From positions 1,860,001 through 1,924,000 of the forward strand of contig NZ_CP114606.1 in NCBI RefSeq assembly GCF_033558715.1: DNA of 64,000 nt, given 5' to 3'. Source of the DNA: Acinetobacter sp. YWS30-1. Lineage in GTDB: Bacteria > Pseudomonadota > Gammaproteobacteria > Pseudomonadales > Moraxellaceae. The first letter of the stretch is position 1. Each line of letters starts with the position of its first letter. Under the pieces are notes generated by a model that was not told the origin of the DNA, did no database searches, and saw only the letters and a list, made by a program, of their open reading frames with translations. This document shows positions 7,087 to 57,662 of this stretch, in pieces. The position numbers were made by a program, and so were the translations under genes.

Positions 7087-7096
7087 ATACTAGACT

Positions 7097-38664: not shown

Positions 38665-38671
38665 GATGTAT

Positions 38672-38696: not shown

Positions 38697-38837
38697 CCTC
38701 TCCTACCCTATTGTTTTTATTACACTAATTAATATTAAAAAATTACAGGATACAAGCTAGGATACATGATTCAAGTGTTGTTTTTTTGACCAGTTGAACT
38801 TTTTTCACCACCGAACTCCCCTACCACATCACCGTGT

Positions 38838-39524: not shown

Positions 39525-39632
39525 TAGCTTAATTATACCTTTCTGCTTTCACTATGATGATCACTTAAAAAGCTTCCAGTCAGTAGTATACTGGTCAAAA
39601 CTATAGTCATAGGCAACAGGACTTTCTATATA

Positions 39633-39818
39633 TCATCCAACCAGAGGAACACCATGATCTGACTTTCCATCCCTAGGAAGGGCATCAGAGAAACAAACTG
39701 GACATCCCCCTTTGAAACGATTCACTCGCGTTAATTGATGACAATCTTTGTCTCGATACATTTCAAAATCAGCATGCTCTTCACTGAATGAAATAAGCAT
39801 CATAGGTACTTTAATCAC
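39633..39818 (-). CDS. Short hypothetical frame, possibly a gene fragment
   Basis: A 61-aa frame with GTG start and no clear ribosome site. The sequence MIKVPMMLISFSEEHADFEM and a later GGCPVCF looks protein-like. The frame is open only a few codons further upstream. It may be the 3' end of a lost gene. Confidence 0.3.
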   Translation of the reverse strand: MIKVPMMLISFSEEHADFEMYRDKDCHQLTRVNRFKGGCPVCFSDALPRDGKSDHGVPLVG

Positions 39819-39852
39819 ACGATACTCGGGTAAACTCTAATTCTACATATAA

Positions 39853-39987
39853 AACCTAGAACTATTGGCTAACATTTTCCGAGAAAGTTATAGAAAGGCT
39901 CCAAATACTCAATGGATGAAGGATATCCCCTATAAATTTCTTGTCGATGCAATATGTAATACGATAAGTGCGAAAATTGGAACTTAA
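39853..39987 (+). pseudogene. Possible 3' gene fragment
   Basis: An open frame of 44 codons with no start reads NIFRESYRKAPNTQWMKD and then IPYKFLVDAICN before the stop. The composition looks like a real protein C terminus. I do not recognise the family. It lies against the left end of the IS3 element and beside another remnant. Confidence 0.3.
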
Positions 39988-40131
39988 CTAGTCAAAAAGT
40001 ACCGTTTAGTACCTTATACCGTACTTACCGTACAGAGAAAAGAGATGGATCCGGAAATTTGAACAACTCCTATAAGTGATACTCTGCTCCTCAAATGATG
40101 TTATAAACATCAATATATGGAGTATTTTATG

Positions 40132-40434
40132 GCACGTAGACCAAGAAGAAATCATTCAAACGACTTTAAGGCTAAGGTAGCACTTGCTGCGATCAAAGCA
40201 GAAAAAACACTTGCTGAATTGAGTTCTGAGTTTGATGTTCATCAAAACCAAATTATTGACTGGAAAAATCAACTGATTTCAGCTTCCTCGCAAGCTTTCG
40301 ATCAATCAAAAGCTCCAACAGAACCACCCATCGATCTAAAAAAACTACATGCAAAAATCGGTGAGCAGGCATTAGAAATTGATTTTTTAGAAGGTGTGTT
40401 GAAGAAACTGGGCCGCTTCAACCACAAAAGTTAA
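40132..40434 (+). CDS. IS3-family transposase OrfA
   Basis: A 100-aa helix-turn-helix protein (FKAKVALAAIKAEKTLAELSS) followed by a leucine-zipper-like helix (IGEQALEIDFLEGVLKKL). The ATG at 40132 has GGAG 8 bases upstream. The end overlaps the OrfB frame in the -1 register at GAAGAAACTG (about 40401-40410), as usual for programmed frameshifting in this family. Confidence 0.88.
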   Translation, partial: ARRPRRNHSNDFKAKVALAAIKAEKTLAELSSEFDVHQNQIIDWKNQLISASSQAFDQSKAPTEPPIDLKKLHAKIGEQALEIDFLEGVLKKLGRFNHKS

Positions 40435-41261
40435 TCGATGACTCACTTCAGATTTCAGTATCTAAGCAAGCTCAGCTGCTGAAAGTCTCCCGTGGTTGTT
40501 ATTACTATCGCCCAAAACCTGTTAGCTCATCAGATCTGAAGCTGATGCGGTGTATGGATGAGTTACATATGCAATACCCTTTTGCAGGTAGCCGTATGAT
40601 GCGTGATTTGTTGAATCGTCAAGGACATCATATAGGACGACGTCATACACGTACTTTAATGAAGAAAATGGGCATTAATGCGTTATATTGCAAACCAAAT
40701 TTAAGCCAGGCTAATCAAGCTCACCGCAAATATCCATATCTGCTCAAAGGATTGGCTATTCAGCGCAGTAATCAAGTGTGGTCTACGGATATAACGTATA
40801 TCCCTATGGCAAAAGGCTTTGTTTATTTATGTGCTGTGATTGATTGGCATAGCCGCAAGGTACTTGCGCATAGGGTATCGATTAGTATGGAGGTTACATT
40901 TTGCATAGAAACATTAAATGAAGCTATTGAAAAATATGGTCGACCTGAAATATTTAATACAGACCAAGGCAGTCAGTTTACCAGTGATGCATTTATTGAT
41001 GTATTGAAATCAAATGGCATTCAAATCAGTATGGATGGTAAAGGTCGATGGGTTGATAATGTGATGGTTGAACGATTATGGCGGAGCGTTAAATATGAAG
41101 AGGTGTATCTCAAAGCCTACAGCAATGTTTTGGATGCGAAGAAGCAATTAAACGCATATTTTGAATTTTATAATTTGAAACGACCTCATTCGAGTCTGGA
41201 CAAAATGACTCCAGATGAGTTTTACTATGACCAGCTACCACAACAAAATAAGGTAGCTTAA
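40407..41261 (+). CDS. IS3-family transposase OrfB (made as OrfAB by frameshift)
   Basis: The catalytic part of an IS3 transposase. An HTH_21-like segment (MQYPFAGSRMMRDLLNRQGH) precedes the rve integrase core with D-D-E residues in WSTDITYIPM, FNTDQGSQFTS and VERLWRSVKYEEVYL. The last motif FYNLKRPHSSLDKMTPDEFYY is typical. The open frame begins near 40400, upstream of the first ATG at 40545, consistent with expression as a fusion. Confidence 0.88.
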   Translation, partial: TGPLQPQKLIDDSLQISVSKQAQLLKVSRGCYYYRPKPVSSSDLKLMRCMDELHMQYPFAGSRMMRDLLNRQGHHIGRRHTRTLMKKMGINALYCKPNLSQANQAHRKYPYLLKGLAIQRSNQVWSTDITYIPMAKGFVYLCAVIDWHSRKVLAHRVSISMEVTFCIETLNEAIEKYGRPEIFNTDQGSQFTSDAFIDVLKSNGIQISMDGKGRWVDNVMVERLWRSVKYEEVYLKAYSNVLDAKKQLNAYFEFYNLKRPHSSLDKMTPDEFYYDQLPQQNKVA

Positions 41262-41322
41262 CTAGAGCAGAGTATCACTTATAAATAAGCTTTTAGTTGT
41301 TCAAACATGTGGGACCACCTCT

Positions 41323-41559
41323 AAAATACTAAGTAATTTTGTGGTTCATCTACGTTAAATCGCACTACTTGAGACTTTGCAACATATGTAGTCTTTTAAT
41401 GCTTGAATAAATTTACGAAATTAGGCCGACCTCATACCCAATTTTTCATTTAAACCTGAGTAGATTCAGGTAGCTATAATCTTTAAATCTTTATGCAACA
41501 AAGCGATCTGACAATAGTATTCGCTACTGTCAGATCTCACGGACTAATATCTTGCTTAC
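41323..41559. other. Intergenic region with a perfect 9-bp dyad
   Basis: GATCTGACA (41505-41513) and TGTCAGATC (41528-41536) form a stem with a 14-base loop about 25 bases past the stop of the large helicase gene. It could end that transcript, although the following T run is weak. No gene is seen. Confidence 0.45.
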
Positions 41560-44500
41560 TCAAAAAATATTTTGTGGCATATGTAATACCTCAAATGAAT
41601 TAATCAACTTACTATCAGCTGAATCAATACTCAACCCTAACAATTTCTCCATATAGATTTTTGACCAAAATGGATGAATTACAAAATACTTTTTACCATT
41701 TTTTATATTTTCAATAGACCATAAATTTAAGCCATTAATTTCTCTTAATTTTGGAGGACTATAAATAGATGGTTTCAACATATTTACATTTATTAAACTT
41801 TCTTCAACTTGGTCATGCCAATTCTCAAGCTCAATATATCTAAAGTTACCGTCTAACCCACATTTATATTTTGGATCATACAATAATCGCAAAAAGCCTA
41901 ATCCAAGTCGCCAATCTAACAGTCCATGATAGGTCCTATTGCCATAGCGTTGGATACACTTATAACAAGCCCCTAAACACGAGGCTTTATGTACCTCTGT
42001 ACTAAGCTTCATACCCAAAGGATCATGATAATCTGATAAAATAGATTTTATTAATTTAAGTATAAGTGGTGAACCAGTGCCTTCTATAATTTCACTTAAT
42101 TTTTGAGAAAATCCAGCACCATTGGCTAACTGATCACAAATCTGCAATACGGGTATACTTTCAATTAATTTTGGTTCAATTTGTTCAAATTCTTCTGGAG
42201 CTATATCTAATTCCAAAGCTGCTCTTTGAATAAGAATTTGTGTTGCTGAAATCAAGGCAGATCTAATTGCTATTGACTCCTTACTTCTACCCAAATATGA
42301 AAAATCAAAAATTTGATCCATTTTTTGAGGTTTTAAGTAAAGGCCATCTGTCTTCTTAAGAGTAGCCAATCCCACGCTTGAATGTTCATCATCATATTTA
42401 GATAAATATTTAAGATCTTCTAACCAGTATTTTGCTTTTGGTGCCGATAAGGACATTTTCTCTTTATCAAACATAGTAAAGCCCTTAAATACGCCACTAT
42501 CTAAGTTTGCCCCCTGATTTAAACGCAGTACGAATGTGCCATTGTCTTCACTATTACCAATACTTAAATTACTCCCATTAACAACATTAAAAACTGTAGG
42601 CTCATTAATTAAAGTAACCACTCTATCGAAATGTTGGAATTCTAGTTCATCAATTTCTTTTTTGTTTAAAGGTTCTCCAGAAGATATGTATGCAGCAGGA
42701 TCCACATATGGTCTAAATTGACTCTCACTCAATACATACTGGCAATTATGACATTTTAATATAATCCCATCCTGCTTTAGATTAATCATTGAACATTGAG
42801 GGCATTTTGCAACTTCGTACTTTTCGTAGAACCATCCATCTTTATCATTACTTCGTTTTTTAATGTCATAACCAAATGGTGGTATATATAGACTCGGGAC
42901 AAATCCTTTGCTCTGATAAGTCTGTTTGTCTACCACCAAAGTTTGATTAGGTGCAAATTCATAAATTGCAGTTTCTGCATCACGATCCACACTGATTAAT
43001 TCATTCTTCTCAGAAATACCTAAATAAAATTCTCGAACATTACTCGGCATCCCATATAAAGGTAAAATTCCTTTATTAGCTAAAAATTCTCCAAATGGTT
43101 TATTTGATTTTTGGCCTTCGTCCTTATATTTCTCAATTAGTTCCAGTAAATTATTAACAGAATACTTTAATAATTCCTTACATAGATATTCGTTGCCTTC
43201 AACCATTCTTTGTACAAATTGATTTTTTTCAGTCAATGTATCACTTAATGCTTGGTTAAGAGTTTTGTTCCATTCCAAAGAAGAATAAATTACCGAAGCA
43301 TATGGGAAATCCCCATGTGTACTACCTAGTACTTCATCACCAGGGTATTTTTCACCTTTTCTTGAACAATTATCTTTAATTAATTCAAAGGCATATGTTA
43401 ACCATACTTTATTAACAATACGCAGATGAATTTGAAGTAAGTTAAATGACAAAAATGGTGGTGGTGGTGGGTCAGCTGTAATTGCTTCAGGATTTTCATA
43501 ATAATAAGTATCATGACTCTTATTACGACATAACGTAACAATCATTGAATAGGATTGGCCTCTACGACCAGCTCGACCTACACGTTGTTGATAATTAAAT
43601 CTTTGAGGAGGCATATTGGCTTGATATACAGCCTGTAAAGAACCTATATCTATACCAACTTCCATAGTTGTCGTTACGGAAAGTAAGTCTATCTCTTGTG
43701 CTTTCTTTTTAATTTTATCGAACTTATCATCTTGCTCATCTTCAATAAAAATGCCTTTGAAATGCTGTAACCGCTGAGCAGGATCATTTGTCTGCCCCGT
43801 TAACTCTTCACAATGAAGTCTAAAAATATCCTCATGTATATTTTGACGAACTTTCTTCGACAAGTAATGCATATCCCACAATTCTAGAACCTGACCTGTA
43901 GGTGTTTTTGGCAATACTTCAAAACATCTTGTACATTTGCCCACTCCTAGGTGAAGATGTACCCTTCCACATTTTATACATCTGAAATATGGATCGTTTT
44001 CTGATGTTGGTTGCACATAGAGACGTTCCAAGTCTATCTTCATTGCTGGATGCCCTAAATTATCGAAATTCTGAATAATTTCTTCTAAAACCTTTTTAGG
44101 ATTATTAGGGTCTAGAGCTTTTGCAAATTTATAAAGATTTGATTGAGGCCTTATATCAGAAGCTTTTGTATAGGGCATTTGATTTTCATCATCAAAATAT
44201 TTACCGCCTCGTACTCTGTAATTATCTGCCATGACCCTCAGCCATGCATCAAGTTTTAAAGAATCAGGATCATCAGTCGGGCGTATACCTACCCAAGCTA
44301 AACCTGATTCTTCAAGGGCATATGTAGTTTTTGCAAACAATACTTCATAGGTTAGTTCATTAATATTTTCACGAATTTTTTCACGCGCTACAAAATTAGA
44401 ACCAGCGCCTTCATCACTTCCTTTTTTCCATTTAGGATAATCATGATCTTGCCAATCAAACCATTCCCACCAAGATTGGTTTTGAATTTTCTCAATACCG

Positions 44501-47295
44501 CTAGCATCACTAGGGTGTACCCCCAGCCGTATCAATGAACTTAAAAAAGGAGATACCTTTAAATCATCTTTAATTTCGATCATTTCCGCCAGGCTTACCC
44601 TGTTTGGCACCGAATTTTCCGATAATTTTGCAAGTTTTGAAGATAATTCAGCAAGTAACGCAAAATTTTTCTCTTTAAAGGCTAATTCATATTGCTGTTC
44701 AAGCTCATCTCGATTACTAAATTCTTCTTTTTTTATCTGTAATACTTCAGAAATGCTTTTAACTAATAACAATCTTCTTAAATCTTGATGATGTAAAGAT
44801 TCTATATTCAGAGCTGCCCTTGCAGCATCTTGTCGACTATCAGAAAATACAATAGTTTTTGCTTCTTCTGAGGTTTGCTTTAAAAAGCTAAATAACTGTG
44901 TTGCTAATAGCTGTGAAGTTTTTGCAAAACCACTACGAAATGAACGAATTGGAGATGCAGGACGAATATTATGATAAATACGACCTTGATAATTTGTTGA
45001 ACAACATGGGCATTCGACTGGTAAGGCACCACCTGCTCGTTCAGTTGTTTCCTGATCTTTGGGTTCAAAGTAAAAACCAAAGATGTCTTCATCTGAGTTC
45101 CTTTGATTTAAAAGAATACCATTTCGAGCATCTAAAAATTTAGGTTTCCAAATTGAATTATTTATTGTCTTTTCATTATTTGCTGGAAGGAAAACAGCAT
45201 AATTTTCCGCCATCAAGTTTTCATAAAGCGTATCTGTTGCTTTTTCTGGCAATTCTTCTAAATTAAAGCCAATCGTCGAAATACTAATTTGTGCAGCATG
45301 ATCTTTACGTTTTTGACCACCAATAAACAACTCACCACAGGCCTCACATACTAACCATTCAAAGTTTCTTTGAATCCCTTGATCAGTCTGAATTAAATAT
45401 TTTCCTCTATCGGTAGTTAAACTATTCTCAATGAAGGCTATTCCATTTTCAGTAGAATAAGGAGCAGCATATAAACCTTCTAAACTTTTAAAGAAAGTAT
45501 GAATGCGCAAGCTTGGCAAACTATCTATTCTATAGTCCCTTGGCAAAAGATCATTCAATCCTCTTATGATCAATAGACCTCTTAAAGCCTTTAAGTTTTC
45601 ACTTCCAAAAATGGATTTAGATAAATATTTTAAATTTCTCGGTTTAATAATATTATTTGTATTATCAAAGCAATAAGTATTTAATAGATTGGAGCTATAT
45701 TCAATAAGTGCCTTTAGTCGTTCAATAAAAAGAAATTGAGAGAAGTTAAGTGAGTTAAAAATATTTATTAGATTATCTTCAAATGTTAAGGTCAAATACT
45801 CAATAGACTTGTCTGTTTCTCGAATTTTTTTATATTCATCATAATCAAAGTCAGATTTAACATATTGATCTGTAAACTTTTCAAATAACTCAGAATTCAG
45901 TTTATCAAACGTAGAATCGAAACCAATTTGCTCACCTGTAACAATTGCATCTAACCACTGTTTAATATCAGGTGAATCTGAGGTTCTTTTATATAATCCA
46001 TTACAGCCAAAGAAATCAGTCAAGTACTTTAGACTTTCTGTAGCTAAAGACCCTTCTGTGGGCAAAGAAGCACTGGACGCTAATATTCTTAATTTATGGC
46101 TATGCTCTGGCTTATCTAACCCTAAACGATGAATAAGATATCGTATTAATCCTGCAATTTCAGTTCCTGCCGATCCTCGAATCAAATGCAGTTCATCTAG
46201 TACAAGATAGAAGTATGCATCAGGATCAGAGATTAACCATTGTTTAGTATTTTCAAATACCCCTTGGTCTACTTCCCTAGAAAGCATAATTGAAAGCATC
46301 GAAGTATTAGTAACTAAAATATCAGGTGGTGTTTCCTGCATATCCCAACGTGAAACTAACTCGCTACCTAGAACATTTGGAAATAAATATTGATTTTTTT
46401 CTGTGTTGCTTGTACTTAAATCATCGAATTTTTTTGCATTTTCATAATATTTTTGAAAATGTGTTAATTCATCTTTTAGTTTTTGAACTCTTTTTTTTCG
46501 AGACTTAATTTCATCTTTATCATCAGCCAATCTAGGATGATTTAAAAAGCCTGTCACAGGAGATTTAGACGTGTATCGACCGAAATAAATTCTATTACCA
46601 TTGGCTTGCTGGTCTAGAACCTGAATTGCTTCGGGTGAAGATAATGTCTTTCTCAACCGTGTTAATTGATCTTCCACCAAAGCATTCATTGGATATAAAA
46701 TTAATGCTCTTACTGCTTTAGGGCGTTCAGGATGCTCATCTATTCGTTGTAACCCGAAGCTAGTTCCATTTTTAAACCAAGTATTACCTTCAATTCTAGT
46801 TAATGGCTTTGGCCATTTTATCGCCTCCTTAGCAATTGACGCTAAGATCGGTAACATAAATGACTCAGTTTTTCCAGAGCCAGTACCTGATGTTACAACT
46901 CCTGGTTGACCATTTCGCACTCCTTTACCAAGCATTTGTGTTTGGTGGAGATATGGTTTATATAAACTCCTACGCATCAACATAGGACGTTTATTTTCAG
47001 GAAGGCCATCAAATAAGCCACTTAATGCTAAATTTATAAAAATACTTCTCTCTTCCGGAGAAAAATCATGTAAAGGATTGTCTTTCTCTAACGTGAGTAA
47101 ATCTTCAAGACTGTAATCAGAAGCCTTATAACGAGGAACAGGTTCAATAATTGGAGAGTTAGTCAATGTATCCGTATCAACTAAGAGCGATCGTCTTAAT
47201 GCTTGTAATGACGGATTACTAATTCTCTGTGTAGTTTCAATTTGTGAGATTAATAAGTCTCTTATATTTTGATAACCGCCAATGGGATCTAACAT
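41560..47295 (-). CDS. DruE-like giant DEAD/DEAH helicase with DUF1998-type C-terminal region
   Basis: About 1911 aa. The helicase motifs are split by long inserts: Walker A SGTGSGKTESF (near residue 138), ALILYPMNALVEDQL, DELH (about 369-372) in LVLDELHLIRG, SSASLP, then TTTMEVGIDIGSL (V) and QQRVGRAGRRGQ (VI) after residue 1150. Zinc-type Cys pairs occur at CEACGE, CPCC, CIKCG/CTRC and CPQC/CHNC. A DUF1998-like end carries CLGACYKCIQRYGN and LLDWRLGLGFLRLL (about 1770-1810). This architecture and size match DruE, the hallmark of Druantia, but DISARM-type helicase/DUF1998 proteins are related. The second ATG (47295) has GAGGAG 8 bases upstream. It is preceded with a 2-base gap by the 674-aa gene. 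Confidence 0.78.
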   Translation of the reverse strand: MLDPIGGYQNIRDLLISQIETTQRISNPSLQALRRSLLVDTDTLTNSPIIEPVPRYKASDYSLEDLLTLEKDNPLHDFSPEERSIFINLALSGLFDGLPENKRPMLMRRSLYKPYLHQTQMLGKGVRNGQPGVVTSGTGSGKTESFMLPILASIAKEAIKWPKPLTRIEGNTWFKNGTSFGLQRIDEHPERPKAVRALILYPMNALVEDQLTRLRKTLSSPEAIQVLDQQANGNRIYFGRYTSKSPVTGFLNHPRLADDKDEIKSRKKRVQKLKDELTHFQKYYENAKKFDDLSTSNTEKNQYLFPNVLGSELVSRWDMQETPPDILVTNTSMLSIMLSREVDQGVFENTKQWLISDPDAYFYLVLDELHLIRGSAGTEIAGLIRYLIHRLGLDKPEHSHKLRILASSASLPTEGSLATESLKYLTDFFGCNGLYKRTSDSPDIKQWLDAIVTGEQIGFDSTFDKLNSELFEKFTDQYVKSDFDYDEYKKIRETDKSIEYLTLTFEDNLINIFNSLNFSQFLFIERLKALIEYSSNLLNTYCFDNTNNIIKPRNLKYLSKSIFGSENLKALRGLLIIRGLNDLLPRDYRIDSLPSLRIHTFFKSLEGLYAAPYSTENGIAFIENSLTTDRGKYLIQTDQGIQRNFEWLVCEACGELFIGGQKRKDHAAQISISTIGFNLEELPEKATDTLYENLMAENYAVFLPANNEKTINNSIWKPKFLDARNGILLNQRNSDEDIFGFYFEPKDQETTERAGGALPVECPCCSTNYQGRIYHNIRPASPIRSFRSGFAKTSQLLATQLFSFLKQTSEEAKTIVFSDSRQDAARAALNIESLHHQDLRRLLLVKSISEVLQIKKEEFSNRDELEQQYELAFKEKNFALLAELSSKLAKLSENSVPNRVSLAEMIEIKDDLKVSPFLSSLIRLGVHPSDASGIEKIQNQSWWEWFDWQDHDYPKWKKGSDEGAGSNFVAREKIRENINELTYEVLFAKTTYALEESGLAWVGIRPTDDPDSLKLDAWLRVMADNYRVRGGKYFDDENQMPYTKASDIRPQSNLYKFAKALDPNNPKKVLEEIIQNFDNLGHPAMKIDLERLYVQPTSENDPYFRCIKCGRVHLHLGVGKCTRCFEVLPKTPTGQVLELWDMHYLSKKVRQNIHEDIFRLHCEELTGQTNDPAQRLQHFKGIFIEDEQDDKFDKIKKKAQEIDLLSVTTTMEVGIDIGSLQAVYQANMPPQRFNYQQRVGRAGRRGQSYSMIVTLCRNKSHDTYYYENPEAITADPPPPPFLSFNLLQIHLRIVNKVWLTYAFELIKDNCSRKGEKYPGDEVLGSTHGDFPYASVIYSSLEWNKTLNQALSDTLTEKNQFVQRMVEGNEYLCKELLKYSVNNLLELIEKYKDEGQKSNKPFGEFLANKGILPLYGMPSNVREFYLGISEKNELISVDRDAETAIYEFAPNQTLVVDKQTYQSKGFVPSLYIPPFGYDIKKRSNDKDGWFYEKYEVAKCPQCSMINLKQDGIILKCHNCQYVLSESQFRPYVDPAAYISSGEPLNKKEIDELEFQHFDRVVTLINEPTVFNVVNGSNLSIGNSEDNGTFVLRLNQGANLDSGVFKGFTMFDKEKMSLSAPKAKYWLEDLKYLSKYDDEHSSVGLATLKKTDGLYLKPQKMDQIFDFSYLGRSKESIAIRSALISATQILIQRAALELDIAPEEFEQIEPKLIESIPVLQICDQLANGAGFSQKLSEIIEGTGSPLILKLIKSILSDYHDPLGMKLSTEVHKASCLGACYKCIQRYGNRTYHGLLDWRLGLGFLRLLYDPKYKCGLDGNFRYIELENWHDQVEESLINVNMLKPSIYSPPKLREINGLNLWSIENIKNGKKYFVIHPFWSKIYMEKLLGLSIDSADSKLINSFEVLHMPQNIF

Positions 47296-47297
47296 AC

Positions 47298-49322
47298 TCA
47301 TAACTCCTCAATTATTTTTATGGCATCTAACTGCTCGTTACATATAAATACGTTATCTTTTTGAATAAAAAGATGATCTGGAAATCCTGACAGACTATGT
47401 AACCGCTCAAGCTGTAAAAGGTGCTGATATGTATTAATAGAAGCCTTCATAATCTGGATAAATCTTTTATTATTTTCAGAAAACAGTATTTCTGAGTATT
47501 TGGTTGTATCTAGACTTTGCAATACAGCATTTGGATTAACATTTAAAGCATTAAATTTCAAGGATGTAACAAATGGAGTTAACTCTTTAAGTAATTGCTT
47601 TTGTCTATCATTTAAAGTCGATAAAGCAGTATTAAGTGAAGCTAGAACTAATAAGTTTTTTGGTCGTTGAGAATAAGAAAGGACTTCAGAAAGTTGCTTA
47701 TAGAAACCTATATAATTAACTTCAGTTACACCTGTAAGATGTACTACATAGTAATGATCAGGATTATTACTAGCATTATTCCAAGCATATGCAAACCCAG
47801 TATTTAAGTTAGTACCCGGATTGCGCCATAAATCATCAACACCAATATAGCTAGCATCCAGTGCAATATGTGAAATGCGCCCCCCGCAAATTAATCTTGA
47901 ATATTGCTCAATAAACGAATGTGCATACTGATTGATGAGAAGGATAAAATGACTAGTACGAAATAATCTATCAAATACAACAACGTTTCTATCATCATAA
48001 CCATAGGTAGATGCCAACTGTTTAAATAAATCTGATGTATCAGTTTCTTCTATGACTTTAATTTCATTTTTAGCTTCCATACATGTCCAAGGCGGTAAAA
48101 TAGAAGGCAATAATGATTTATTTTGTAATAGACCACGATCTGTTAGAAAGTCATTTAGCTTTTCAATTATATTTCGTTCCCTAAGTGATATTTCTCCAGC
48201 CTCAGTGAAAAAATCATTTATTAACAGCTTAAGATCATTTATAGAGGTTTCTAAAAAAATTTTATCTTTTTTTAATTCCTCGTTTAATGAACTTAATATT
48301 TCGCTTTCACTTTCTTTCTCGGAAATTTGTTCTTCCAAGCTATCTAATAAGGCTTTATGCTCTTTTTCTACTTCTTCTATTTTATCTTTTAAAATAGCAG
48401 CTGAGCGCACTTTAACATCAGACTCAACTTGCTCTTTAATAAATTTTTCATAATCAGTTGTTTTCAGTAAATTTTCATACAATTTTTTATACGTCTGAAA
48501 AATAAAATTTGTATGTGTAGTATTTTCAATTATACGTGCTAAATATTGCTCTTTATTTAAATAGCCTGCAGATGTATCAGGAAAAATACCATTAGCCTGC
48601 AAGAATGAGGTTATTTCCTTAATCTCACTAACAGAAGGCAACTGAAATTTATCTAAATTATCTTTAGAAATTTTATAAAGATAGCTCAGAGCTTTTTCAT
48701 GAAAAGCATAATCTGCGGACCAATCAATTAAGCCTAGTGGTGTTAAATTAGAAAAAATATTACCAAGCAGATATTTATTATTTCTAAATTGAAATATACT
48801 TGTATTATTAAGACCATCTTCTAACAAATAGCTTTCTACAAGATTATTAGACTCTGACTGTCCTACAGGGTAATCTGCATACCATTTTTGATCCTCAACA
48901 TTCAATCTAAAGTTAAGTTGAATAATAATATTTTTCTGTAAGTAAATATAAAATACTCTCGGAATATCTCCTTTTTCTTCTTCTAAATATATACCATCAA
49001 AAAATAATTTTTTCCGAACTTGGTCTATAGAGATAAATGAGTAATCTAATATCTTGTAAAGAAACTCTTGACTGTCCCTTACAACAATAAATTCATCATC
49101 TGAATATTTTTTTTTATTTGTATTTTCCTCACATAAGAAATAGCATAGTTGATAAGTAGCAACTAACTCATGACGAGGAAAATAGTCAAATACCGTAGAA
49201 TTTGGTGCAAAATCTTCAGGAATTGCTGGATACCAAATACCATTTATTTTTTCATGCGTTGGTTTAATTTTAGCATGATTACCCACATAATTTAGATGAA
49301 ATCCAATACATTCTCTATACAT
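47298..49322 (-). CDS. Unrecognised 674-aa coiled-coil protein of the DruE-like operon
   Basis: I do not recognise this family. The N-terminal 300 residues look globular, with many aromatic residues. A strongly charged coiled coil spans about 305-375 (KDKIEEVEKEHKALLDSLEE and on). The C-terminal 250 residues look like an alpha/beta domain with VVVFDRLFRTSHFILLIN and HIALDASYIGVDDLW, and a later VVHLTGVTEVNY. No nuclease or methylase motif stands out. It sits between the 796-aa gene (5 bases) and the giant helicase (2 bases), so all three are surely co-translated. By position it could correspond to one of the accessory proteins (DruF/DruG) of Druantia type II. Confidence 0.75.
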   Translation of the reverse strand: MYRECIGFHLNYVGNHAKIKPTHEKINGIWYPAIPEDFAPNSTVFDYFPRHELVATYQLCYFLCEENTNKKKYSDDEFIVVRDSQEFLYKILDYSFISIDQVRKKLFFDGIYLEEEKGDIPRVFYIYLQKNIIIQLNFRLNVEDQKWYADYPVGQSESNNLVESYLLEDGLNNTSIFQFRNNKYLLGNIFSNLTPLGLIDWSADYAFHEKALSYLYKISKDNLDKFQLPSVSEIKEITSFLQANGIFPDTSAGYLNKEQYLARIIENTTHTNFIFQTYKKLYENLLKTTDYEKFIKEQVESDVKVRSAAILKDKIEEVEKEHKALLDSLEEQISEKESESEILSSLNEELKKDKIFLETSINDLKLLINDFFTEAGEISLRERNIIEKLNDFLTDRGLLQNKSLLPSILPPWTCMEAKNEIKVIEETDTSDLFKQLASTYGYDDRNVVVFDRLFRTSHFILLINQYAHSFIEQYSRLICGGRISHIALDASYIGVDDLWRNPGTNLNTGFAYAWNNASNNPDHYYVVHLTGVTEVNYIGFYKQLSEVLSYSQRPKNLLVLASLNTALSTLNDRQKQLLKELTPFVTSLKFNALNVNPNAVLQSLDTTKYSEILFSENNKRFIQIMKASINTYQHLLQLERLHSLSGFPDHLFIQKDNVFICNEQLDAIKIIEEL

Positions 49323-49327
49323 AAAAA

Positions 49328-51718
49328 CTACGCTCTAAATCTTATATTTTTACGATGGCGATGTAAATTATAACCTAATATTGTAGGAAGCTCTTGTCGA
49401 TTCTGAGAGGATTCTGAACTTTTAACTAATCCTTTAGGATAATAGTAATGTCCATCCTCTAAATCTAAATAAGGTAATACACCATTTTTAGAAAAATACT
49501 CTAAAACTAAACTACAACTAAAATTATTTGAATAGGAAATATATTGATCTTTTTCACTTAAGACTAAATTGAACATCCCGTATTTATATGCCCAATCAAA
49601 AGTTTCATCTCGACAATAGGTGGATAAGATGCTTTTTCTTCTATGTATAATTTCATATACATTACATTTTTTCTTATCTTTTTGCTTAAGCATGTAAATA
49701 CCATTATCACCCAAATAATCCTTTATATAAAAAAATTTATTTAATTCAGCATTAAACTTAAAAATATCGAAAGATTTATAATAACGTTCCCCCTCACTTA
49801 AAAAACTGATTTGATGAAAATTATTAGCACTACCTAAATCTGTAGATAAAAAATATTCTGGCAATAAACTCCCTAAATCTTCATTTGTGACCAACACTTT
49901 AACAGGAAATGTTTCTTCCCCAATTTCAATTCTCTTAATAATATAATCGACACCTAAACAATCCAACTGATCACATAATATATTCTGAGTACTTTTCGAG
50001 ATATAACCCTGTATCAAAAAACAATCCTTCTCAAATTTATTCAAAAATATTTGTTTAGGCCAGTATTTTATGGACTTATAATTATTATGATAACCGCATA
50101 CTATATACCCATAATGCTTTAATTTACAAATAATATTATATGGGCTAAACTTTGACAAACTTTCATGAGTACTTATTAATTTCAACAAACTAGATTCAGA
50201 AATTCCATGTAAAGAATTAAAATAAATAAGCTCTATTAACTCTTCAAAAATATTTTCATTAGGACTTCTAGCCTTTTGATAATTAAATTTAATATTCTCT
50301 GAAACATTAAATATTGGCGTTTTGGTTATTGTATATAAATTTAATTCATTCTTTTCAGATTTAATATTTGCATCCTTTAAGCTATTAACAATATGAAACT
50401 TTTCTACTTTACTTAAATAGAATTCCCCCCTCGTTGTTAAAATTAATTTAAGCTCACCTTCAGATAAATGTGGTAAATATATTTCATCTCCTTCATAAAC
50501 AATTTCTTTACTATGCTTCAGTTCAGAGTGGATGAATTCAATTTCTCCATCAAAATTAGCCCTAAATTTGATGGGTGCCATATTTAGGGACAATAATTCC
50601 TTACGCCTATAACTACTTAGAATCTGAAGAGGAGGTAAGTATTGCTTATCCTTATAATTTAAAAATATTTTTTTTATTTGTTCTATATTTCTATAATCTA
50701 CTTCTAAAAAGCAATATTCTTCTGTGAATATTGCTTCATTTTTATTAATCTCTTCGGTGTCATAAGTTTTCAAATGATAAAGAATAGCATCAACATCTTC
50801 TATTCTATGGATATTTTCAATCAATTCATATTGCCAATTAAATCTTTTAAGGAAAAAAATTCTATTTTCAAAGCTTTTGTTTTTTCTTTTCAAAGAAAAA
50901 AACTCAGTATTCCCACCATGTAGATCACATACCTTCAATCTAGTATATGGCAAATCAAAATAGGAACTTTCTAAATCATTACCTAAATTAAAATAAATTT
51001 TTTCTTCTATGTGACCTTTAGGTTTATTCCATTTTAAATAAAAGTTCCAAAAAGGGTCTTCTTCAAGGAACTTGTTTTTCAAAGCCACACGTTGAGTAAA
51101 TATTCTAATAGCTTGATACAACCCCTCATGCTGTTTAAATTCATTTAGATTAATTAGCAACTCTTTCCGTAAAGTCTCCGGAGTATGCTCACCTTTATAA
51201 AGATTTTTATTTAATAGACTTTTGAGTCGCCAATTTGGAAAACTAAACTCATATATAATCCCGATTAACTTCATATGCTGCGGAGTACTGCATGGTATTT
51301 CAACCTTACGATATTGTTCACTTTTGAGAGTAAACTCAACTAATTGGCGAAACAGTTTGTTTACACCATCTAATCTAGGTGGACTAGATAATCCTAATTT
51401 TTTCTGTAGTTTTGCTCTAAAATTTTCTGATTCAAATCCATCTTGCGCTGCTATATAGCATAAAAAAACAATATATCTAAATCGACTCGCTGCTCCCCAG
51501 TAAGTTTCCTCGCTAGCCAAAAACCTATTAAAGGCTCTAGCATCTTGAACTTTTATAATATTTTCAAATGTCTTAATAGGTTGATCAATTCCTTCTAATG
51601 CTTCAATTAAAGTTTCTTCAGTAACATCGATACTTTGCATTATAGAATTACCATAATGCCCTGTTGTTTTTAAATAAAAATCAACAAGTTTTTTTTCTAT
51701 TAGTTGCGGTGTAATCAT
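49328..51718 (-). CDS. Unrecognised 796-aa protein, first gene of the DruE-like operon
   Basis: I recognise no domain with confidence. The protein is rich in Lys, Asn, Ile, Phe and Tyr. The middle has beta-rich stretches (FRANFDGEIEFIHSELK, EIYLPHLSEGELKLIL), and the end is basic (LGYNLHRHRKNIRFRA). A possible winged-helix region lies near 520-570 (LHGISESSLLKLIS). Base composition is markedly more AT-rich than the hsd genes next to it. ATG at 51718 is preferred to TTG two codons earlier, and neither has a clear ribosome site. The gap to hsdR is 68 bases, so read-through from the RM operon is possible. Confidence 0.72.
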   Translation of the reverse strand: MITPQLIEKKLVDFYLKTTGHYGNSIMQSIDVTEETLIEALEGIDQPIKTFENIIKVQDARAFNRFLASEETYWGAASRFRYIVFLCYIAAQDGFESENFRAKLQKKLGLSSPPRLDGVNKLFRQLVEFTLKSEQYRKVEIPCSTPQHMKLIGIIYEFSFPNWRLKSLLNKNLYKGEHTPETLRKELLINLNEFKQHEGLYQAIRIFTQRVALKNKFLEEDPFWNFYLKWNKPKGHIEEKIYFNLGNDLESSYFDLPYTRLKVCDLHGGNTEFFSLKRKNKSFENRIFFLKRFNWQYELIENIHRIEDVDAILYHLKTYDTEEINKNEAIFTEEYCFLEVDYRNIEQIKKIFLNYKDKQYLPPLQILSSYRRKELLSLNMAPIKFRANFDGEIEFIHSELKHSKEIVYEGDEIYLPHLSEGELKLILTTRGEFYLSKVEKFHIVNSLKDANIKSEKNELNLYTITKTPIFNVSENIKFNYQKARSPNENIFEELIELIYFNSLHGISESSLLKLISTHESLSKFSPYNIICKLKHYGYIVCGYHNNYKSIKYWPKQIFLNKFEKDCFLIQGYISKSTQNILCDQLDCLGVDYIIKRIEIGEETFPVKVLVTNEDLGSLLPEYFLSTDLGSANNFHQISFLSEGERYYKSFDIFKFNAELNKFFYIKDYLGDNGIYMLKQKDKKKCNVYEIIHRRKSILSTYCRDETFDWAYKYGMFNLVLSEKDQYISYSNNFSCSLVLEYFSKNGVLPYLDLEDGHYYYPKGLVKSSESSQNRQELPTILGYNLHRHRKNIRFRA

Positions 51719-51786
51719 AATCAATTATCTGAAAGCTATTTTTAAAATGCTCATTTCATAAGCATTTTTCAGGATTAAATGTGCTC

Positions 51787-54700
51787 TTATTTACTCACTA
51801 ACACATCATAAATAATATGCGCAAATTGCTTCATCTTCGCAGGATCACTCATCAACTGTGTCATTTGCTCCATATGCGCTGCATTACTGTCTAATACAGC
51901 ATCATCAAGCGCCGTGTCAAACTCACCCAGCATGGCCTGTTCACGAGTGTTGTTATGAATCTGTTTCATCATTCGTGTGTTCTCAGACATCTTGTCAGCA
52001 ATGGTCAGAGCATAGTTGATCATGTCTTTCTCTGTCAGATTATCCGTCACAAACAGATCATTCATACGGCTTAAAATCTGCGACAAAAAGTCTTCTTTCT
52101 TGTCTTTCGGCTTTGCAGTACCCAGTTCATTACCAGGCTCAAGTTTATGCTCGGTACTATCGGCTTTAAGCTGAATATCCTGTTGGCGTAACTTGGACAA
52201 ACGGTAATGCGTCATTGCAACATTGCTTAGATCAACCTCATCCTCTTCGGCCACCTGTTCACGCAGTAATGGGCGCAAGTTACGCGCAAAAAGACTCAGC
52301 TTCTCAAGTTCTTGATCGTCATACTCCACGATTTGAGACATAAACTCATAGAAACGGGTAAAGCTGCCTAAATCCTTTTTAAAGATTTCTAGTGCATCAC
52401 GGGCTTTCTTCGCTTCAGCAAATTCGTTTTCAGCATTGGCAATCAGTACGGCGTCCCCTGTCTGCTTACAGCGTTCTAAACGGTTCTTAGTGACATCATA
52501 ATCATTCACGGCTGTCGTGTAGCGATGTTGCCAGCGTTGCATCGCAGGTTTACAGATATTGGCAAGTGCCGCATTGAGTTTGTTCTTGCTATAGAAAGCT
52601 TCTGTAAACTGCTCTACCTCAGTCATAAGGAAAATACCTGCTGATTTCAGCTTGTTGGCCAGATCGTACACTTGATCAGGATTGGACACATCTGCCAGTT
52701 CTGCCGTTTGATAATACGGTTGGAAAGCATCGAGAATGTCTTGTGGATCGTTAAAGAAGTCGAGCACAAAGGTGCCTGACTCCGCTTTACCCGGATAGGT
52801 CCGGTTTAAGCGCGATAAGGTCTGTACGCATTCCACGCCACCCAATTTCTTATCGACATACATTGCACACAGCTTCGGCTGGTCAAAGCCGGTCTGGAAT
52901 TTATTCGCTACAATCATCACCTGAAAGTCATCGCTATCGAATGCCTTACGCATCTCACGACCTTTCAGATTCGGATTCATATTGCTTTCAGTAAATTTCT
53001 GACCTAACAGATGACTACTGTCTGCATCATTGGCATTAAATTCTACATCGCCTGAGAATGCCACCATGGCTTGAATGTTGGCATAGTTCTGTTCAGCAAT
53101 GTATTTATCAAAGGCTTGTTTATAGCGTACCGCTTCTTTACGAGAACTGGTCACCACCATGGCTTTGGCTTGCCCACCGAGTAAACCCATAATATTTTTC
53201 TTAAAATGCTCAATGATGATATGCACTTTTTGCGAGATATTATGATCGTGTAAGCGTACCCACTGATTCAGCTTGGTCTTGGCTTTCTTGGCATCGACCT
53301 GAGCATCTTTTTCTTCGATCTTCTGCTTGAGCTTGTAGATGACTTTATAGTTGGTGTAATTCTTGAGTACATCCAGAATAAAGCCTTCTTCAATCGCTTG
53401 GCGCATTGAATAGACATGATATGCCACAGGAATATTGGTTTTAGACGGCGGCATGCTTGGATCGGGCAAGCGTCCAAACAGTTGTAAGGTTTTATCCTTT
53501 GGGGTTGCGGTAAAGGCATAGAAGCTTAGGTTTGCACTGCCCTTACGTGATGCCATCACTGCATCGAGTACATCTTCAGAAGAAAGCTGTTCATCTTCAT
53601 CACGCTCTTCAATCATCAAAGTTTCTTTGAGCTGACGCGCCGTGGAACCGCTTTGCGATGAATGGGCTTCATCGGCAATGACGGCGTATTTACGTTCTTT
53701 TAAACTGGTGCTGTTTTCAATGGCACGCAGTACAAACGGGAAGGTCTGAATGGTGACGATGATAATCGGCTGGGCCATTTCCAAGGCTTTGGCCAGTTTC
53801 TCGGATTTAGAACCATCACCTTCTTTATTGTTAATCCGACCCACGACGCCATCCGCATGTTCAAACTGATAGATCGTATCTTGTAGCTGTGCATCCAGGA
53901 TGGTTCGGTCTGTCACCACAATCACCGAATCAAACATCTTTTTATTGTTGGCATCATACAGACTGGATAGTTGATGCGCCGTCCATGCAATCGAGTTAGA
54001 TTTACCCGAACCTGCGCTGTGCTGAATCAGGTATTTCTGTCCTGTGCCTTCTACCAATGAATCTTGAACTAGGTTATTCACCACTTTCCATTGGTGATAG
54101 CGGGGGAAGATCAGACTTTCTTTTTTGTATTTACGCCCTTCCCAGTCTTCCTTTTCTTCAATCTGTAAATGAATGAAGTTACCCAAAATATTCAGCAAGC
54201 TATCCGGGGTTAAGACTTCATTCCATAAATAGCCTGTGGCGTATTCATTCACATCTTCAGGCACATCATTGCCTGCACCCTGCGCCGAAGTACCTTTGTT
54301 AAATGGCAGGAAGTAGGTGCTGTCACCATTCAGATGCGTCGCCATATAGACTTCATACTGACTTACCGCAAAATGCACCAATGCCCCGCGTTTAAACATC
54401 AGCAAGGGCTCAGGCTTGTTGGTTTCAGGGTCTTTGGGCAATCGGGTTTTCCGGTACTGTGTCATGGCATTTTGCACAGCCTGTTTAAACTCGGACTTGA
54501 GTTCCAGAGTTGCCACAGGAAAGCCGTTGATAAACAGGACCAGGTCAATACGCCATTTCTTGGCTTGTTTGCCAGTTGCCTCTAATTCGGCTTTGGATGT
54601 ATATGGGCTATACACCAGTTCAGGCACGACACGGCAGATATTTTGCTGATAGCGTTGATTCAGTTCGGGGTTTAAGCCATGTTCAGGTTTAAACTGACAG

Positions 54701-55035
54701 AATGAAAAGCGTGTGCCACGGGTCTTGATGCCATGACGGAGTATGCCCAATGTACCATAACTACGGGATTCAACATCGGTGGCATTGATATCGGCTTTTT
54801 TAAGTTGAGCCACCACGGTATCTAAAAAATGGCGTTCGGTATCATTGGGAAAGATGTTTTTAAATTTCTGCCACTCGACCTGTTGGGTCTTTTGTACAAA
54901 GTCGAGTACGTCTTGCTCATACAGGGCTTTTTCACAATTGTAGCCTTGCCCAGAACCCACAATCCAACCATGCGTTTGCATTTGCGCAATGATATCTTGC
55001 TGGAAGATAGTTTCTAAAGTTGCATCCGATCTCAT
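51787..55035 (-). CDS. hsdR: Type I restriction endonuclease subunit R
   Basis: The motor and nuclease subunit of a type I restriction system. The PD-(D/E)xK nuclease motif is in IDLVLFINGFPVATLELK (about residues 165-182). The SF2 helicase has QHSAGSGKSNSIAWTAHQL (Walker A), VIADEAHSSQSG (DEAH box), YAFTATP and GFDQPKLCAMYVDKKL. The helical C-terminal part is complete, 1082 aa in all. It is last of the hsdM-hsdS-abi-hsdR set, with the abi gene 34 bases upstream. Confidence 0.95.
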   Translation of the reverse strand: MRSDATLETIFQQDIIAQMQTHGWIVGSGQGYNCEKALYEQDVLDFVQKTQQVEWQKFKNIFPNDTERHFLDTVVAQLKKADINATDVESRSYGTLGILRHGIKTRGTRFSFCQFKPEHGLNPELNQRYQQNICRVVPELVYSPYTSKAELEATGKQAKKWRIDLVLFINGFPVATLELKSEFKQAVQNAMTQYRKTRLPKDPETNKPEPLLMFKRGALVHFAVSQYEVYMATHLNGDSTYFLPFNKGTSAQGAGNDVPEDVNEYATGYLWNEVLTPDSLLNILGNFIHLQIEEKEDWEGRKYKKESLIFPRYHQWKVVNNLVQDSLVEGTGQKYLIQHSAGSGKSNSIAWTAHQLSSLYDANNKKMFDSVIVVTDRTILDAQLQDTIYQFEHADGVVGRINNKEGDGSKSEKLAKALEMAQPIIIVTIQTFPFVLRAIENSTSLKERKYAVIADEAHSSQSGSTARQLKETLMIEERDEDEQLSSEDVLDAVMASRKGSANLSFYAFTATPKDKTLQLFGRLPDPSMPPSKTNIPVAYHVYSMRQAIEEGFILDVLKNYTNYKVIYKLKQKIEEKDAQVDAKKAKTKLNQWVRLHDHNISQKVHIIIEHFKKNIMGLLGGQAKAMVVTSSRKEAVRYKQAFDKYIAEQNYANIQAMVAFSGDVEFNANDADSSHLLGQKFTESNMNPNLKGREMRKAFDSDDFQVMIVANKFQTGFDQPKLCAMYVDKKLGGVECVQTLSRLNRTYPGKAESGTFVLDFFNDPQDILDAFQPYYQTAELADVSNPDQVYDLANKLKSAGIFLMTEVEQFTEAFYSKNKLNAALANICKPAMQRWQHRYTTAVNDYDVTKNRLERCKQTGDAVLIANAENEFAEAKKARDALEIFKKDLGSFTRFYEFMSQIVEYDDQELEKLSLFARNLRPLLREQVAEEDEVDLSNVAMTHYRLSKLRQQDIQLKADSTEHKLEPGNELGTAKPKDKKEDFLSQILSRMNDLFVTDNLTEKDMINYALTIADKMSENTRMMKQIHNNTREQAMLGEFDTALDDAVLDSNAAHMEQMTQLMSDPAKMKQFAHIIYDVLVSK

Positions 55036-55069
55036 GTTTCCCCTACCCCTAAATACTCAAATTTCTTTA

Positions 55070-55987
55070 TTACTGTTCTATTTGCCAAATAGGATGGCTT
55101 TGCCAATCTTCAGGGAAGCCCATCGCTATTTTTGATATGTTGTGATGTGTCAAAAGCAGATCAACCAGACGTTTACGCCATGTATGCTGCGGGGCGATTT
55201 TGTCCATGAAATAGAGTAGAAATACCAGACTGTTATAAATTTTTCGATCTGCTGAGTTACTAGGTTCAAAATTGCATTGCACCCGAAGCCCCATCGGCTT
55301 ACTGCGTGGCTTAGCGATAGTTTTGGTAAATTTGCGGTTCCATAGTCTTGAATGATGAGCACAGGTATTTCTTAAGTAGACAAAATGCTGTAATAAGCCT
55401 TCAAACTGTTTTTCATCGCAATCAAAATGACTGGAAATGGCTTTACGTGTCTGAATCGGTGCCAAGAGCTGATACCACTTAGACAGTTGCCCAAAACTCA
55501 TGACTTCGCAGGTGGCCCAAATCGGTGGTAATTCAGGATCATCATAGGTACGTTTATAGTGTTCTATAAAGACTTCATCTGCGCGGGACACTTCAGTTTT
55601 CAGTGATTCGAGTAAGCTTTGCCATCTAAAGGCGGGTTTAAAGTACTGGCCTTGCAGATAGGCGTGACAACCATGCCGATGTGCCAGTTCATAGGCAAAA
55701 CGGGTGCGAACGGCGACTTCCAGGCGTTCTATGGCATCCAGGATAAGTAACCTTAATTCACGATCAAATACATACAGCGCTAACACCTGTTCAAAACTGG
55801 TATCTGGTTTAAAGCAATGTGGTGAATGGGTGTATTCAAACGGAAGCCAGTAGGCACCTAAGCGATAATAATTGATTTGCTCTAAGTAAAATTGTGCATC
55901 TTGCTCATTGGCAAATTGCATGCCTCGAGCTTTTAATAGCTCAATTTGTTCAGCAAAGGTTTTGGCAGGCTTGTTAAAAGATTTCAT
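55070..55987 (-). CDS. Abi_2/AbiF-type HEPN protein
   Basis: A 305-aa protein of the Abi_2 (AbiD/AbiF) group of abortive-infection factors. The N-terminal FAEQIELLKARGMQF and INYYRLGAYWLPFE motifs, the central DRELRLLILDAIERLEVAVRT, and the C-terminal RNTCAHHSRLWNRKF are all family signatures. Arg206-(4)-His211 is the HEPN RNase motif. It is inserted between hsdS and hsdR. Abi_2 genes are frequently found inside type I RM loci. No ribosome site is seen. A 5-bp stem and other hairpins lie directly upstream. It is likely to cut RNA when phage activity is sensed (inference from family). Confidence 0.88.
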   Translation of the reverse strand: MKSFNKPAKTFAEQIELLKARGMQFANEQDAQFYLEQINYYRLGAYWLPFEYTHSPHCFKPDTSFEQVLALYVFDRELRLLILDAIERLEVAVRTRFAYELAHRHGCHAYLQGQYFKPAFRWQSLLESLKTEVSRADEVFIEHYKRTYDDPELPPIWATCEVMSFGQLSKWYQLLAPIQTRKAISSHFDCDEKQFEGLLQHFVYLRNTCAHHSRLWNRKFTKTIAKPRSKPMGLRVQCNFEPSNSADRKIYNSLVFLLYFMDKIAPQHTWRKRLVDLLLTHHNISKIAMGFPEDWQSHPIWQIEQ

Positions 55988-55996
55988 AGATGGCTT

Positions 55997-56254
55997 GCCC
56001 TGATTGTTATATTTTTTAGGGCTCCAGAAACAAGTAACCCGACAGTTTGAGGATGCAATTGCTTGCCTAGCCTTGTCGGGTGTTGTTGAGCATATAGTGA
56101 ATCATTGCAATTATTTATGCAATGATTTTTTGTATCTGCTTGAGTCCACATTTGTTTGAGGCAACTGAGAATATTCATGCGCCAAACTCCGTTTTAGCCT
56201 CATTGGGATGTTGCCAATTGCGTACGTCACAAATCGGCAGGGATAGCCGATTTG
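55997..56254 (-). ncRNA. Candidate structured RNA between hsdS and the abi gene
   Basis: The 295-base gap shows four stems. In the direction of the operon they are CAAATCGGC/GCCGATTTG (56230-56254, perfect 9 bp), AATCATTGCA/TGCAATGATT (56100-56127, perfect 10 bp), CCCGACA/TGTCGGG (56038-56080) and GCCCT/AGGGC (55997-56022) just before the abi start. One stem has a T run on the plus strand. AbiF-type proteins have been reported to work with a neighbouring noncoding RNA. The link here is by position and structure only. Confidence 0.45.
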
Positions 56255-56282
56255 GACAACGACAAAAACGTGATAGTGTCAT

Positions 56283-57662
56283 TTAGATACCCTCCGTTTG
56301 TTTTTTGTCGTTGCCCGAAGGGCGTGAGACATGATGCCGAACGTCTATTTTACCTGTCACCGCAGATGAAATAAGGGCTGTACGGCGTTCTTTTAGCAGT
56401 TGATTCTGCTTTTCAGATGACTGAATCAACCTATCATATTTAGAATATTGTTCAGCAATAAATAAAATGATGTTCTTTTGCTCATCTATTGGCGGTAATG
56501 GAACTTTCATATTTCTTATTGAATTTAACGACAAGTTATAAATGGTTGTTCCTGTAACTTCTAGGTCATAATAGTTTTTTGCCTGTGATGACGTTAAATA
56601 GTTCATTAAAAAGTTAGGCAACAATTCACGACAACAATTAATATATGACGCACTTTTTCCCAGAATAACTGGCTCATCATTGAATTGTGCTACTTTACCA
56701 ATAGTGCCGTTGATAGATAGTAAAACTGTTGTTTTATCTAAACTAACTTGATGCTTAATAAACTCGCTCTCAGGGACTTCTTTAGCCGTTTCTCCAATAA
56801 AAATTTTTCCGTCTACTAAATTATTACCATTAATAAAATAATAACCCGTTCCTTCCTGATATAACGGAGTCGAATGCAATCCATCACCAATTCTCGTTGT
56901 GATATGCAGTAATTTTGGTATTTCCCAATGCTCAGGCACTTCCCCTAACCATTCCACCCCTGAATCTTTCATGGTTACATCAGGATTTAAACCTTTGGTT
57001 ACAGCATGGCTAATCACTGCTTGACGCTTTTCTTTTAGCAATTCAATCAGCTTTTCTTGTTTAGCAATTAAAGTGTCAATTTTTGCAGTTTCATAGTCGA
57101 GGAAATTGGCAATTTGATTTTGTTCCTCTCTAGTTGGGAAAACAAATTTTTCCATCAAATATGCTTCAGAATCTAAATTTTGGATTCCTGTTGTTTGTTT
57201 AATTGATGGAAAGTTTACTCGCCCTGCATATAAATGAGAAAAAGCAAATGTTAAAAAACGACTAACCATATGCTTTTTTGGCGTCATTTTAGCAACAAAG
57301 TTTGATGTGATTGCTTGAAAATCCTCATTGAATTGCACTACACACCCAACTAAAGTTTTTTCACCGCCACCTGATTTTTCTAGTAATAAGTCACCTTTCT
57401 TTAACAGTCTATTTTCAGCCTCTTTTTGAGAAACTGATCTATAAGTTAATTTATCTAAACCTACTGTAAAGTTGTGTCGATTGAAGTCTGCAACACGTAA
57501 AACACATAAATCATTACTTCCATCAGGCTCACTTCCCCAAAAACCATTGGTACAACCATCAACAGCTCTTTTTAAGGAAAATAAATTCCAATGACTAGGA
57601 ATCTCACCTAACCACTCCACACCTGAATCTTTATACTCAGCATATTTCTGATACTTTGCCAT
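56283..57662 (-). CDS. hsdS: Type I restriction specificity subunit S
   Basis: It sets the DNA recognition sequence. Two target-recognition domains, each opened by a related motif (KDSGVEWLGEIPSHW near residue 11 and KDSGVEWLGEVPEHW near 232), are separated by a conserved helix (TLIAKQEKLIELLKEKRQAVI). A second such helix lies near the end (RLIQSSEKQNQLLKERRTALI). The 459-aa length is normal. The start overlaps the hsdM stop by one base (TAATG). Confidence 0.94.
   Translation of the reverse strand: MAKYQKYAEYKDSGVEWLGEIPSHWNLFSLKRAVDGCTNGFWGSEPDGSNDLCVLRVADFNRHNFTVGLDKLTYRSVSQKEAENRLLKKGDLLLEKSGGGEKTLVGCVVQFNEDFQAITSNFVAKMTPKKHMVSRFLTFAFSHLYAGRVNFPSIKQTTGIQNLDSEAYLMEKFVFPTREEQNQIANFLDYETAKIDTLIAKQEKLIELLKEKRQAVISHAVTKGLNPDVTMKDSGVEWLGEVPEHWEIPKLLHITTRIGDGLHSTPLYQEGTGYYFINGNNLVDGKIFIGETAKEVPESEFIKHQVSLDKTTVLLSINGTIGKVAQFNDEPVILGKSASYINCCRELLPNFLMNYLTSSQAKNYYDLEVTGTTIYNLSLNSIRNMKVPLPPIDEQKNIILFIAEQYSKYDRLIQSSEKQNQLLKERRTALISSAVTGKIDVRHHVSRPSGNDKKQTEGI

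Follow-up and report, generated by a model that had tools for sequence, protein, structure and literature searches.

A three-gene operon on the minus strand of the genome of Acinetobacter sp. YWS30-1 is most probably a Druantia type II system cut down to its DruF-DruG-DruE core, without DruM and Vsr, and placed in a slot whose contents can be swapped. The operon lies in a stretch of 64,000 nucleotides (contig NZ_CP114606.1, positions 1,860,001 to 1,924,000), referred to here as the window. An earlier note, made from the sequence alone, described a tight row of three genes, which the open reading frame (ORF) coordinates confirm (51718-41560, minus strand), and a giant helicase with split SF2 motifs and a Cys-rich end, whose motifs and cysteines were found as described. 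It regarded the two proteins encoded upstream of the helicase as unrecognized and the operon as lacking the usual Druantia partners. These proteins are identified as DruF and DruG by PADLOC, hhalign and sequence profiles, and of the three usual partners only DruM is lacking. The intergenic gaps of the note are 5 bases between DruF and DruG, which is correct, and 2 bases between DruG and DruE, which is obtained only with the next ATG of DruE; with the DruE start at 47301 the two genes overlap by 4 bases. The ATG start of druF gives 796 residues, and the ORF list instead uses a TTG at 51724 (798 residues). Taken as a whole the interpretation of the note is partly supported. Its proposal that a type II relative had lost DruM is borne out by the identity of DruE2, the homology of DruF and DruG, the nested position of DruE and the lack of a C5 methylase match in the genome.

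Comparison of sequences identifies the 674- and 796-residue proteins as divergent DruG and DruF, respectively. In PADLOC, DruF matches the DruF2 model with 66.5 bits (best stretch, residues 4-241) and DruG matches DruG2 with 30.6 bits (residues 467-518), and in Pfam and NCBIfam neither protein has a match at E 0.1. A reference set was taken from plasmids. A tblastn search yielded five records with DruG-like stretches, four of which are also DruF-like; an added DruE search raised the number of records to 18, of which 11 were taken for reading. Eight loci (L012-L016 and L020-L022) form the reference set, and their genes in the DruF and DruG positions were aligned. PADLOC recognizes DruF in every one of them and DruG in six, with a weak match in L012; the two that it misses, L021 and L022, are matched weakly by a DruG profile built from five loci (E = 1.9e-7 and 1.8e-6). 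The window families were aligned in seven rows each (A3, without P0001 and P0008-P0010, and A4, without P0011 and P0018, the sequences left aside being truncated, chimeric or almost identical to the window).

Profile-profile alignment by hhalign joins the window DruG family to the eight plasmid DruG proteins over residues 35-565 of 674 (E = 3.5e-34) and the DruF family to its counterparts over residues 5-617 of 796 (E = 1.3e-21), whereas the swapped controls gave E = 0.42 for DruG and 0.70 for DruF. Profiles of the eight loci, with the window excluded, match the window proteins at E = 3.8e-51 (DruG) and 8.3e-29 (DruF); those of five loci (L012-L016) do so at 2.5e-60 and 4.6e-25, and those of the three PADLOC-confirmed loci (L012, L013 and L015) at 4.5e-46 and 4.4e-21. 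The assignment follows from the agreement of the two kinds of comparison and from the null result of the swapped controls. The earlier note had named full-length matches to DruF and DruG as an outcome that would contradict it; the matches cover most of each protein and stop short of the complete length. Rapid evolution of the partner proteins was considered and set aside. Among 45 pairwise identities from 10 loci the window is at the low end for DruF yet not for DruG, and therefore no special acceleration is claimed.

Structure prediction of both proteins, as suggested by the note, was carried out, but the models came out too poor for use, with mean predicted local distance difference test (pLDDT) values of 43.0 for DruG and 46.9 for DruF. 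A helix of about 107 residues is predicted at positions 289-395 of DruG in this low-confidence model (pLDDT block means of about 40-79 along the helix) and is likely to be a coiled coil. When the DruF and DruG profiles were searched against PDB sequences, nothing scored below E 0.01; the weaker DruG matches are mostly coiled coils. No conserved nuclease site was recognized in DruF or DruG. The last domain of DruG aligns weakly with three McrB proteins (probability 1.8%, P = 0.027, 57 columns), and the aligned columns surround the Walker-B and sensor-1 strands.

The 1913-residue protein is, by its sequence, a full-length DruE2 with intact motifs and zinc cysteines. It matches the PADLOC DruE2 model with 1883 bits across residues 3-1910, compared to 1144 bits for DruE4 and 581 for DruE1. 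The SF2 motifs are GTGSGKTE, DELH and SSAS and, about 800 residues further on, TTTMEVGIDIG and QRVGRAGRRG. The zinc cysteines form six CxxC pairs and, at the C-terminus, a CxxxCxxC cluster. Across an alignment of 10 DruE rows, almost none of the motif and cysteine positions varies. The Pfam domains DEAD and Helicase_C score above their cut-offs and MZB under its own. PDB entry 9wae ('Helicase', 1970 residues, seven entries) matches the window DruE with 1307 bits and that of plasmid locus L015 with 1547 bits, and because it matches both, it appears to represent a solved structure of a type-II-like DruE.

Neither a C5 methylase nor Vsr is matched among the window ORFs of at least 100 residues, even at E 10 without filtering. 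PADLOC and Pfam matched no methylase in the operon, as the earlier note had stated. The window's own genome, which is 99.99% complete, has 0 matches to PF00145; the same search is positive in 10 of the 14 genomes used as controls and, across the genus, in 90 of 173. A genome free of C5 methylases is unremarkable by itself, because 83 of these 173 are without one. All eight plasmid loci have a C5 methylase at a distance of 0-2.5 kb from the operon, and a Vsr gene is likewise present in each, from slightly overlapping the operon to 3.52 kb away. The C5 profile was made from these same eight loci, and each of the eight methylases is also identified through its annotation or Pfam. For Vsr, L012, L013, L020 and L022 carry an annotation, and the profile detected it in the other four. 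The methylase is downstream of druE in L013 and L015, and on the opposite strand in L013.

Two of the ten loci with all three genes, one of them with a weak DruG, lack DruM. This count leaves out L032, L033 and L035-L038 (DruE relatives without a DruF or DruG match, with a C5 methylase present in the stretches read of L032, L035 and L036), L023 and L024, which carry DruL, and L025, where DruE, a C5 methylase, Vsr and pieces of DruF are present but DruG was not shown. In L012 an 'ATP-binding protein' (5697-7637) that matches PADLOC REase_II models is situated between the cytosine methylase and DruF. McrBC, which cuts DNA at 5-methylcytosine, was considered as the force driving DruM loss and set aside; in L012 the operon lies between the cytosine methylase and McrBC.

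In the DruE tree the window pairs with L015 from Burkholderia (support 100/100, and 100/99 in a second tree), inside the DruM-bearing set. The approximately unbiased (AU) test rejects a grouping of the eight DruM-bearing rows without the window (p = 0.003) and a corresponding grouping of six rows (p = 0.012); the groups tested were defined after a first tree.

Full-length relatives fall into seven clusters for DruG (52-99% identity) and seven for DruF (50-98%), one of each seven being the window's own sequence or nearly so. At least 23 member sequences are found in three of the seven DruG clusters and in four of the seven DruF clusters. The divergent forms of DruF and DruG have thus been kept, as the clusters are full-length and several are well populated. 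The longest contig of both P0005 and P0018 has 39,853 bases, which suggests that the two are on one contig. Within the genus, query A1 matched one of 175 genomes, the window's own, and DruE2 at E 1e-50 was found in three of 175 including the window's own, the other two (L026 and L027) being partial with about 180 bits. Viral contigs, and plasmids searched at the DNA level, gave no match. No match was found in a genome-contig collection with A1 and A3, a search that used only two short peptide patterns each, so that absence is not established there; the DruG2 model matched none of 369 genomes of the class, but missed the window's own DruG too and is uninformative.

Outside the genus, locus L034 (G255:C36:34001-54000), which belongs to the same class but to a different family, shows the same gene order with a DruF of 254 bits and a DruE of 2157 bits, and on sequence grounds is likely a second DruFGE locus. 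As in the window, neither a C5 methylase nor Vsr is matched, in this case with nothing convincing in the stretch of 46 kb that was read (best E = 0.62 and 0.91, respectively). It differs from the window in three respects: its DruE branches outside the DruM-bearing set, its DruG is weak, and its genome has two C5 methylases, both on other contigs. Six of its neighbors are housekeeping-like by Pfam, e.g. guanylate kinase, a radical SAM protein and a glycosyltransferase. No restriction-modification (RM) gene was found among the 16 neighboring ORFs scanned (six by Pfam and ten by PADLOC, a part of the ORFs present); one of the ten has a partial PDC-S33 match.

The operon shares its gene order and homology with Druantia type II (DruM-DruF-DruG-DruE) of the eight plasmid loci, and its DruE is 36-43% identical to theirs. 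Unlike them it has no DruM or Vsr, its DruF and DruG are only 15-22% identical, and their coverage by PADLOC is partial. As described in the available text of PMC8565338, type II requires DruM and DruG, and type IV consists of DruE-DruF-DruL. The window has DruE2, DruF and DruG but not DruM, and fits neither definition fully. Type III (DruH-DruE) shares the DruE helicase core and the lack of a methylase, but the window has no DruH; neither partner protein matches it in PADLOC at E 0.1. Comparison with DISARM (DrmA/DrmB plus a methylase) gave only short helicase-motif matches between DruE and DrmA, the best with 37 bits. According to the accessible part of PMC12458937, Druantia I/II are named Type IV CoCoNuT, their DruE has an inactivated Vsr-like domain, and their operon encodes CnuB, an inactivated McrB-like protein with a coiled coil; for type III DruE an active PLD nuclease domain is predicted. 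DruG with its long predicted helix is a likely candidate for CnuB, of which the weak McrB alignment (P = 0.027) is no proof. No description of a DruM-less type II system was found in the available portions of the open-licence literature.

Several observations weigh against the reading of the operon as a reduced type II core or limit what can be claimed for it. The DruE branch of the window is long (2.36 changes per column) and its composition skewed, and the nesting of DruE could partly be an artefact of the two. The fork tested with six rows is unstarred in the second tree (92/95), and the DruF and DruG trees put the window family in a clade of its own, without a nested placement. The eight plasmid loci are a small sample, picked by similarity, and the neighborhoods of the closest relatives (P0002-P0007 and P0012-P0017) are outside it. 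The DruG of L034 is matched weakly by the eight-row profile (36.9 bits, E = 1.4e-10), and is matched neither by the five-locus profile nor by PADLOC. The anti-phage function of the window operon is predicted. Finally, DruF and DruG have no recognized nuclease site, and the Vsr-like domain of type II DruE is described as inactivated in the accessible part of PMC12458937, so that no recognized activity accounts for the damage to the phage.

The genes upstream of the operon form a type I RM cassette, HsdM-HsdS-Abi-HsdR (Table 1), with HsdM in the same direction as the operon, as the earlier note had pointed out. The same cassette is found in two sister species, G009 and G013, with 91% and 98% DNA identity near the junction, and the homology breaks off at most a few bases from the stop codon of HsdR. 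A phosphatase gene on the other side is also common to the three genomes. Between the phosphatase gene and HsdR is an exchange slot (38611-51787), which is occupied by DruFGE in the window and, in both G009 and G013, by McrBC together with other ORFs. The slot of G009 holds McrB and McrC, as identified by Pfam, and a 327-residue ORF. In G013 there is a McrB that is 97% identical to that of G009, with a McrC-sized neighbor and several further ORFs. The slot exchanges modules, and the RM cassette can occur in the absence of Druantia. The G+C content is 0.28-0.34 in DruFGE.

Table 1. Operon genes and neighboring features of the window.
Feature	Coordinates	Strand	Identification and remarks
DruF homolog, 796 aa	49328..51718	-	PADLOC, hhalign, profiles; first operon gene
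DruG homolog, 674 aa	47298..49322	-	PADLOC, hhalign, profiles
DruE2, 1913 aa, YprA-family SF2 helicase	41560..47301	-	PADLOC, motifs, PDB relative; motifs intact
Type I RM neighbor	51787..59989	-	PADLOC and Pfam; outside the system
HsdM	57662..59989	-	PADLOC, Pfam
HsdS	56283..57662	-	PADLOC, Pfam
Abi_2	55070..55987	-	PADLOC, Pfam
HsdR	51787..55035	-	PADLOC, Pfam
IS3-family insertion sequence	40041..41323	+	transposase 40545-41261; neighbor between the downstream flank and druE, outside the system

The arrangement raises the question of whether HsdM stands in for DruM, so that N6-methylation by HsdM/HsdS would label self in place of the DruM mark in a mixed RM-Druantia system. All seven genes are co-directional, HsdR and DruF are separated by 68 bases, and a consensus search of 51500-52000 shows no terminator-like or minus-strand promoter-like site. 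Nevertheless, such a system is quite improbable, as the cassette occurs without DruFGE in both sister species, with McrBC in the slot; the type I RM genes are therefore regarded as a neighbor and not as a part of the operon. Furthermore, the flank homology stops at or next to the end of HsdR, the G+C content falls from 0.445 in HsdR to 0.281 in DruF, and the scanned neighbors of L034 include no RM gene. A relationship to Druantia type IV is less probable still and scarcely to be expected. It would account for an operon of three genes with DruE and DruF and without DruM, which is how type IV is defined in the available text of PMC8565338. However, the middle protein is a DruG homolog and not DruL: the DruL models match L023 and L024 but not the window, and the window DruE stands apart from those of these two DruL-bearing loci. 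In addition, the DruE2 score is far above that of DruE4, and DruF matches the DruF2 model and no DruF4 model. Judged by the homology of DruG, the type IV reading is largely refuted.

A further explanation is that of a type II system in decay, from which DruM was lost recently and whose remaining genes are inactive or disappearing. The lack of DruM and Vsr and the presence of an IS3 element just downstream would agree with it; the element has another copy in the same genome at 100% identity, and copies in relatives reach 98-99%. Decay is nonetheless unlikely, although less so than the two preceding explanations, because the three long ORFs are intact, DruE has kept its helicase motifs and zinc cysteines, and the DruF and DruG families each comprise seven full-length clusters, several with many members.

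If the operon is the reduced type II core favored here, DruFGE may be a methylation-independent core that works alone, DruM being an accessory and not the mark that separates self from non-self; this is a tentative view, held at slightly less than even chances. Should it be correct, the divergent family with its seven DruF and seven DruG clusters would constitute a distinct subtype with DruG and without DruM. In the accessible part of PMC13192584 DruE is the shared core of Druantia systems, with the partners setting the triggering, and type III DruE loads onto 3' single-stranded DNA. The window DruE would be a DNA motor powered by ATP, loading onto phage DNA that is single-stranded or branched. 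Its partners DruF and DruG would act as a control layer, keeping DruE inactive until structures of phage replication or phage proteins are present, and the DruG coiled coil might dock DruG onto DruE. Self would be spared through what DruE, DruF or DruG recognize, either a DNA structure or a phage trigger, and not through a cytosine-methyl mark; sparing by recognition is the most likely arrangement because the search of this genome revealed no C5 methylase. With its DruFGE operon intact and no cytosine methylase detected, the genome uncouples the methylase from the core, and the role of DruM becomes directly testable, including whether a methyl mark is needed to spare the host. The PADLOC models catch the divergent DruF and DruG only in part, and consequently such operons may be reported as incomplete.

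Some minor features of the region were also noted. Beside the RM cassette are an ORF of 788 residues (61549-63915) and an overlapping one of 215 residues (61101-61748), neither of which is matched by PADLOC or, above cut-off, by Pfam; the best match of the former is Tet_JBP (E = 0.01). In the G013 slot a pair of ORFs of 261 and 688 residues (L051:14669-17532), located between McrBC and HsdR and without a Pfam or PADLOC match, is a candidate for a new defense module. A sequence of about 200 bases borders the exchanged modules in the window (39835-40043) and in the sister species (L051, 9853-10059 and 13991-14183; L052, 12121-12323), one of which has two copies. It appears to contain the 3' end of a plus-strand gene, occurs in three of 23 genomes searched, and is a possible recombination border.

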